A stretch of DNA of 64,000 bases from Kosakonia oryziphila. Its GTDB lineage: Bacteria > Pseudomonadota > Gammaproteobacteria > Enterobacterales > Enterobacteriaceae. The stretch spans positions 1 to 64,000 of the forward strand of contig NZ_FMBC01000028.1 of assembly GCF_900094795.1 (NCBI RefSeq), given 5' to 3'. The translations under genes were made by a program, and so were the position numbers. Below the pieces are notes generated by a model, which made no database searches, was not told the DNA's origin, and worked only from the letters and a program-made list of their open reading frames with translations. Below, in pieces: positions 6,792 through 61,956 of this stretch (its first letter is position 1; each line of letters opens with the position of its first letter).

Positions 6792-7619
6792 TTGGAAAGC
6801 CTGTTAAACCTCTCTCTGGCCGGTGAGTCCAGAGTCAGGGTCTTACAAATTACTGATTCTCACCTGTTTGCCGAAAAGCACGAGACGCTGTTAGGGGTCA
6901 ATACCTGGGAAAGTTATCAGGCGGTACTGGAGGCTATCCAGGCCCAGCAGCGCCCTTGCGATCTGATCGTCGCCACTGGCGACCTGGCACAGGATCACTC
7001 CGCTGCGGCTTATCAGCATTTTGCTGAAGGCATCGCAAGATTCTCTGCGCCTTGCGTATGGTTACCGGGTAATCACGATTTCCAGCCCGCCATGTACAGC
7101 GCATTGCAGGATGCGGGAATATCCCCTGCAAAACGCGTATTTATCGGCGAACGCTGGCAAATTCTGCTGCTGGATAGCCAGGTATTTGGCGTCCCGCATG
7201 GTGAATTGAGTGAATTTCAGCTTGAGTGGCTGGAGAATAAACTCTCCGACAGCCCGGATCGGCATACTTTGCTGTTGCTTCACCATCATCCGCTGCCATC
7301 TGGCTGTAGCTGGCTCGATCAGCACAGCCTGCGTAACGCGGGCGAACTGAATAATGTGCTTCAGCACTTCCCGAAAGTGCGCTACCTGCTGTGCGGGCAT
7401 ATTCACCAGGAGCTGGATCTCGACTGGAATGGCCGCCGCCTGCTGGCGACGCCGTCAACCTGCGTGCAGTTCAAACCGCACTGTGCCAACTTTACGCTCG
7501 ATACCGTTGCACCGGGCTGGCGTTGGCTGGATCTCTACGATGACGGAACGCTACATACTGAAGTCTGTCGGCTGGAGAGCACGCAGTTCCGCCCCGATAC
7601 GGCTTCCGAAGGTTACTAG
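6792..7619 (+). CDS. cpdA: 3',5'-cyclic-AMP phosphodiesterase CpdA
   Basis: 275-residue metallophosphoesterase that hydrolyses cAMP and so tunes CRP activity. Metal-site motifs in order: D22 and H24 in QITDSH, GDLAQD, GNHDFQ, LLLLHHHP and LCGHIHQE. TTG start behind AAGGACACCA; the family N-terminus (MESLLNL) supports it. The stop codon is unusual: the coding part ends TAC, then TAG, where TA is target sequence and the final G is the first base of an inserted 265-bp element. The insertion therefore changed the original TAA of a cpdA/yqiA TAATG overlap into TAG without changing the protein. Confidence 0.96.
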   Translation: MESLLNLSLAGESRVRVLQITDSHLFAEKHETLLGVNTWESYQAVLEAIQAQQRPCDLIVATGDLAQDHSAAAYQHFAEGIARFSAPCVWLPGNHDFQPAMYSALQDAGISPAKRVFIGERWQILLLDSQVFGVPHGELSEFQLEWLENKLSDSPDRHTLLLLHHHPLPSGCSWLDQHSLRNAGELNNVLQHFPKVRYLLCGHIHQELDLDWNGRRLLATPSTCVQFKPHCANFTLDTVAPGWRWLDLYDDGTLHTEVCRLESTQFRPDTASEGY

Positions 7620-7883
7620 GCTGTGTCCCGTAATTGGTCGTGGTGGCGACGCTGGGTACAACGCGCGTTGTCAAGGCGGAGGATGCAGGGCATAGTGGGC
7701 CTGTGTTCAAGTCCGACAACGCAGAGAACGCGCTTTTTAAACGCGTCCCGAAGGGCTGAGGCCATTTTTACGCATGACTGCGTTGCTCACGGCTCATTTG
7801 GGTCCCCAAACGTCGCCGTTTGCGCCTTGCCCTGCGTAAAAATGACCATCAGCGCCACTCGTGCACAATTAAGGGACACAGCC
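7619..7883. mobile_element. 265-bp MITE-like inverted-repeat element, copy 1
   Basis: A non-coding block bounded by terminal inverted repeats: left GGCTGTGTCCCGTAATTG, right the same inverted with one mismatch (AATTAAGGG instead of AATTACGGG). It is flanked by TA on both sides (7617-7618 and 7884-7885), as expected for transposition into TA by IS630/mariner-type transposases. Copy 2 at 61674-61938 has the same length and differs at five positions that I could see. Inside are further palindromes: ACAACGCGCGTTGT, TTTGGGTCCCCAAA, and a 15-bp arm pair starting GGCCATTTTTACGCA. No transposase is encoded; the open frames within it are not conserved genes. It separates cpdA from yqiA, which overlap in E. 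coli. Confidence 0.85.
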
Positions 7884-7885
7884 TA

Positions 7886-10395
<2,510 letters not shown>

Positions 10396-61659: not shown

Positions 61660-61956
61660 AAAGCCCGATATTAGGCTGTGTCCCGTAATTGGTCGTGGTG
61701 GCGACGCTGGGTACAACGCGCGTTGTCAAGGCGGAGGATGCAGGGCATAGTGGGCCTATGTTCAAGTCCGACAACGCAGAGAACGCGCTTTTTAAACTCG
61801 TCCCGAAGGGCTGAGGCCATTTTTACGCATGACTGCGTTGCTCACGGCTCATTTGGGTCCCCAAACGTCGCCGTTCGCGCCTTGCCCTGCGTAAAAATGA
61901 CCATCAGCGCCACTCGCGCACAATTACGGGACACAGCCTGGCGTACCGGGCTTTTT
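61660..61956 (+). terminator. pstS terminator split by the 265-bp element
   Basis: Left arm AAAGCCCGATA (61660-61670) and right arm TACCGGGCTTT (61944-61954) with T7 would form an ordinary terminator, but the two arms are now 273 bases apart with the inserted element between. The element is itself self-complementary and could fold to bring the arms together. Confidence 0.6.
61674..61938. mobile_element. 265-bp MITE-like inverted-repeat element, copy 2
   Basis: Same length as copy 1 at 7619-7883, same orientation, five differences seen by eye. Its terminal inverted repeats are perfect over 18 bases (GGCTGTGTCCCGTAATTG). Left flank TA; right flank TG, so the target duplication is imperfect or mutated here. 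It sits in the loop of the pstS terminator. Confidence 0.85.

Follow-up and report, generated by a model that had tools for sequence, protein, structure and literature searches.

The closest described systems are the enterobacterial ERIC (MITEEc1) and YPAL/RU-2, which are non-coding, palindromic, intergenic and strongly folded, are flanked by TA duplications, and need no autonomous partner in the host genome (PMC2759123; PMC10969869); the sequence of RU-2 is given in PMC2759123. The element described here, located between cpdA and yqiA of Kosakonia oryziphila, resembles them in all of these respects. It is nonetheless larger, at 265 bp compared with 127 bp for ERIC and 167-168 bp for YPAL/RU-2, its ends and interior appear, on inspection, to differ from theirs, and its termini correspond to those of a recognized kind of insertion sequence (IS). 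An ISEhe2-like IS of the IS5 family is bounded by the same 17-18 bases and is likewise flanked by TA, whereas it is about 920 bp long, encodes a two-frame DDE transposase, and has an interior that is not common to the MITE. Other MITEs can be likened to this element by description or listing rather than by sequence. For example, the 235-bp Chunjie MITE of the unrelated host Geobacter uraniireducens has also inserted into an operon and left its organization intact, according to the title of a 2008 paper as cited in PMC10969869. Similarly, MITEKpn1 and MITESen1, listed in ISfinder, are also MITEs of Enterobacteriaceae (PMC13367494); MITEKpn1 has been reported around blaNDM-1 (PMC12194966), compared with one plasmid record, at 75% identity, for the family described here.

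We analyzed a 64,000-nucleotide stretch of the K. oryziphila genome (contig NZ_FMBC01000028.1, positions 1 to 64,000; hereafter the window), with the names cpdA and yqiA taken from E. coli matches and other gene names in the window assigned by inspection. The features of the locus are collected in Table 1. An initial annotation had described a TA-flanked 265-bp block with 18-bp terminal inverted repeats lying exactly at the cpdA stop and yqiA start, and had proposed that the first base of the block turns the cpdA stop into TAG, that yqiA retains its ATG, and that neither protein is damaged. All of these features can be read in the sequence: positions 7617-7885 are bounded as TA-GGCTG...CAGCC-TA, the two ends agree in 17 out of 18 positions, cpdA ends in TAC-TAG with the G contributed by the element, the yqiA start follows immediately 3′ of the right TA, and both reading frames are intact. 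The window's listing of open reading frames includes none of at least 100 amino acids within the element, which is thus short and without a transposase gene. Its inverted ends, TA duplication, empty site, short length, multiple copies, and termini common to autonomous IS5-family elements on plasmids identify the cpdA/yqiA element as a MITE.

Table 1. Positions of the cpdA/yqiA element, its parts and neighboring genes in the window, together with further copies.
Feature	Position	Strand	Remarks
cpdA (3′,5′-cAMP phosphodiesterase)	6792..7619	+	TTG start; stop TAG; basis includes E. coli annotation
Left TA of target duplication	7617..7618	.	Also supplies the T and A that begin the cpdA stop; basis: empty sites TAC-TA-ATG
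Full-length MITE copy	7619..7883	+	265 bp
Left terminal inverted repeat GGCTGTGTCCCGTAATTG	7619..7636	+	
First internal hairpin arm	7648..7747	+	Family-structure helices 2-4, at alignment columns 32-131
Second internal hairpin arm	7755..7853	+	Helices 6-9; alignment columns 139-238; one gap column in the window copy
Right terminal inverted repeat GGCTGTGTCCCTTAATTG	7866..7883	-	17/18 match with the left end
Right TA of target duplication	7884..7885	.	Abuts the yqiA ATG
yqiA (esterase)	7886..8461	+	ATG 7886-7888 directly after the right TA
Second full-length window copy	61672..61940	+	98% identical; right TA changed to TG
Orthologous ugpE/ugpC copies	L011-L015, L050-L052, L054, L055, L075, L134, L135		More conserved than adjacent coding sequence

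Relatives were searched, at one genome per species, with a joined-flank query of 303 bases. The cpdA/yqiA junction was uninterrupted in all 15 other Kosakonia species, and the four closest congeners matched without gaps across the whole query at 92-94% identity. Where the junction was read out (nine congeners), it was TAC-TA-ATG in three and had TG in place of TA in six; the three near relatives with the TA, all among the four closest, carry TACTAATG at this position. In E. coli, where cpdA and yqiA have a one-base overlap, 5395 of 5426 genomes match the junction without interruption. These empty sites agree with the earlier proposal that removal of the element and one TA restores the overlapping stop/start arrangement of E. 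coli, and the duplication of TA upon insertion is apparent from the single TA in the empty sites and the two that flank the element. Since the junction is uninterrupted in congeners and in E. coli, the window copy is likely to be recent on the species scale, an age estimated from one genome per species. The opposite reading, that cpdA/yqiA carried the block ancestrally and other lineages lost it, has nothing found in its favor, was rejected already at this sampling and is hardly credible in view of the 15 congeners and E. coli, the exact empty site in relatives at 94% identity, and the close similarity of the genome's other full-length copies to the window copy.

The proposal that further copies would be found was borne out by a whole-genome search. 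Five full-length copies are present, the window copy included, at 96-100% identity, and the other four are 96-98% identical to the cpdA/yqiA copy. One of these is the second window copy, which sits between genes for a PstS-like substrate-binding protein and a universal-stress-protein-like protein (named by inspection). The genome also holds 7-8 shortened, partial or internally deleted copies, down to about 50-62 bp. Among the tiny derivatives, C25:50309-50370 and C88:53186-53235 (about 50-62 bp) and C88:36327-36450 (124 bp) have kept both ends and lost most of the interior. In another record (L007, positions 1501-1700), a piece of the left end continues, from element base 78, into an ERIC-like repeat, as judged by inspection. 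The fold of the window-copy strand is far better than that of shuffled sequences (z -5.5) and, together with the TA-flanked layout, the copies and the empty sites, argues that this pattern is not due to chance.

Which transposase moves the element was addressed through its ends. The initial annotation had pointed to an IS630/Tc1-mariner transposase acting in trans. IS630 elements duplicate TA too, and on a C. braakii plasmid that bears a related copy an IS630-family transposase is annotated close by. However, profile searches of the K. oryziphila genome gave no match to the IS630 helix-turn-helix domain (PF01710) and only a sub-threshold fragment for DDE_3 (PF13358), and the same ends sit on IS5-family elements instead, making an IS630 mover quite improbable. 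Indeed, a 30-base end query against plasmids recovered the same end on IS5-family, ISEhe2-like elements in Citrobacter, Yokenella, Pantoea, Rahnella and Arsenophonus; the shortness of the query makes these matches statistically weak (E 5), and their weight comes from their location at both IS termini. Reading the IS from both ends gave its length of about 920 bp and a TA on each side. The terminal 17-18 bases are identical between the MITE and the IS5-family elements (match region 18-20 bp), the two interiors have nothing obvious in common, and the transposase of the end-sharing IS contains DUF4096 and DDE_Tnp_1 domains. ISEhe2 has been assigned to IS5/IS427, with duplications of 2-4 bp (PMC10425158), and the duplications of Paracoccus IS427-group elements are mostly 2 bp (PMC3281130). 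The autonomous IS with the same terminal 18 bases that the annotation had suggested seeking was not found in the K. oryziphila genome, either by ends or by an ISEhe2-like protein search of this draft assembly of 129 contigs; draft assemblies can lose insertion sequences. One congener has a partial match to the ISEhe2-like transposase. At E<=1e-10 there was none in seven of the eight other MITE-carrying genomes, and the eighth has one match of 63% over part of the query, the rest being 35-38% and most with stops. The assignment is deduced from the shared ends, no partner transposase having been found in this draft genome, and an IS5-family (IS427 group, ISEhe2-like) transposase acting in trans is the probable mover.

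To describe how the family meets coding sequence, 25 copies, one per locus, were surveyed for reading frames of at least 100 codons running into an element end. All 11 such frames meet the element with the junction TA starting a stop codon; in two of them the TA has since been altered and the frame reads through. Assuming three equally likely frames and independent loci, the chance of this outcome is near 6e-6. Where the TA is intact, it is mostly preceded by C or T. Because every one of the 11 frames is in the stop-codon frame, we conclude that the family inserts at the TA with which stop codons begin.

We therefore arrive at an account of the cpdA/yqiA junction that we consider probable as a whole, namely that a MITE moved by an IS5/IS427-type transposase landed in the TA of the cpdA stop, left both genes intact, and may have allowed a coupling between them to continue. 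An ISEhe2-like transposase would recognize the 18-bp ends and insert the element at a TA, duplicating it, with the target here being the TA within the stop of cpdA in TAC-TAA-TG. Because G is the first base of the element, the stop now reads TAG and cpdA is preserved, and because the right TA lies just ahead of the ATG, yqiA is preserved as well. By pairing strongly, the two ends would rejoin the cpdA stop and yqiA start at the base of a hairpin, a ribosome finishing cpdA may open the stem and thereby expose the yqiA start, and expression of yqiA, and perhaps of parE, could still depend on cpdA translation. In a fold model covering 7561-7960, positions 7873-7888 are predicted to be mostly paired (mean unpairedness 0.13); when 7600-7631 are held unpaired, which mimics a ribosome at the cpdA stop, this value rises to 0.51, and the comparable stretch of the empty site is 0.45 unpaired. 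Some ribosome-binding-site bases remain paired in the model, which speaks against coupling. Alternatively, AAGGG at the right end could be an ordinary ribosome-binding site, which would also count against coupling. From the modeled accessibilities we infer that any translational coupling of cpdA and yqiA may have continued after the insertion.

Related copies occur in nine of 149 sampled Enterobacteriaceae genomes, K. oryziphila included, each from a different genus, and a plasmid search gave a single related record, at 75% identity, on a conjugative plasmid of Citrobacter braakii (L042), where the copy ends rfbD with its own TAG. Nineteen members could be aligned over 270 columns almost without gaps, indicating a near-fixed length, and in their consensus fold the ends pair into a long closing stem, accompanied by two large hairpin arms plus one two-pair hairpin. 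Two-sided changes are present in 47 of 97 pairs of this alignment, and the covariation score was reached by none of 500 shuffles. Four members that were folded are very stable (z -5.5 to -12.6). Both strands fold alike (-144.9 and -145.6 kcal/mol), and departures on pairs common to both strands are nearly balanced, with 28 G-T and 32 A-C. This balance and the equal folding of the strands indicate that no transcribed strand is favored, which points to constraint on, or correction of, the fold at the DNA level rather than to an RNA from one strand. Curated Rfam covariance models gave no match to the element, and literature searches with words from its end and interior sequences returned only papers seemingly unrelated by title.

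A further copy lies at the ugpE stop and ugpC start in five Kosakonia genomes, in two genomes of another genus, and in three additional records, two from Raoultella and one labelled Enterobacter sp. 10-1. The other 11 Kosakonia genomes, K. oryziphila included, have GAGAAATAAGATG at ugpE/ugpC. Among Kosakonia species this copy is 98.5-100% identical, compared with differences at about 35% of adjoining synonymous sites. For example, two Kosakonia differ at 27 of 82 fourfold sites of ugpE (50 of 135 over a longer stretch) and at none of 270 element positions. Between genera, the left half of the element shows 3-6 differences and the right half 14-17. These comparisons suggest purifying selection on the ugpE/ugpC element and suggest that this copy has been exapted. 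A recombination tract was considered as a source of the identity and rejected: in the same Kosakonia pair there are 5 and 3 differences in the 60-bp windows that abut the element, and such a tract must therefore start and stop at the element edges. It is possible that the identity arose instead because nearly identical elements inserted repeatedly, or by site-restricted conversion.

The origin of the conserved fold admits two further explanations. The element could encode a functional RNA, such as an attenuator, a processing site or a regulatory RNA, that is under selection, with mobility being secondary; the stability of the four folded members, the strong covariation, and the conservation of the ugpE/ugpC copy far beyond adjoining synonymous sites would all suit such an RNA. 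The strand symmetry, seen in both the mismatch counts and the fold energies, and the lack of an Rfam match argue otherwise, and we regard this explanation as unlikely. Paired changes might also accumulate without selection if template-switching during replication corrects one arm of the palindrome from the other. Quasipalindrome correction is an established mutational process, and mismatches that are symmetric between strands are what it would leave; against it, the internal-loop bases that are unpaired do not vary between genera either, the ugpE/ugpC copies show stronger conservation in their left half than in their right, and the length of the element hardly changes. We consider template-switching doubtful, yet a serious candidate; it concerns the origin of the fold and is compatible with insertion of a MITE into the cpdA stop as set out above.

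The insertion at cpdA/yqiA provides a clean case of a transposon entering an operon, beside parE, at the single position that lets both neighbors survive, and this survival is explained by a TA target within a stop codon and an element that starts with G. The ugpE/ugpC copy offers a second, older case, where the element is more conserved than its surroundings. These copies belong to a folded family that has spread through gut and plant bacteria and is absent from Rfam and the literature searched. A broader reading, which we put forward as speculative and rather unlikely, is that a stop-codon-targeting MITE family with a structure maintained across Enterobacteriaceae underwent exaptation at ugpE/ugpC. 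In Kosakonia, Raoultella and one more genus it would then act between the two cistrons as a conserved element setting translation of the downstream gene, and the cpdA/yqiA copy might represent the same step at its beginning. With these two loci, the conversion of mobile elements into regulatory parts becomes directly testable.
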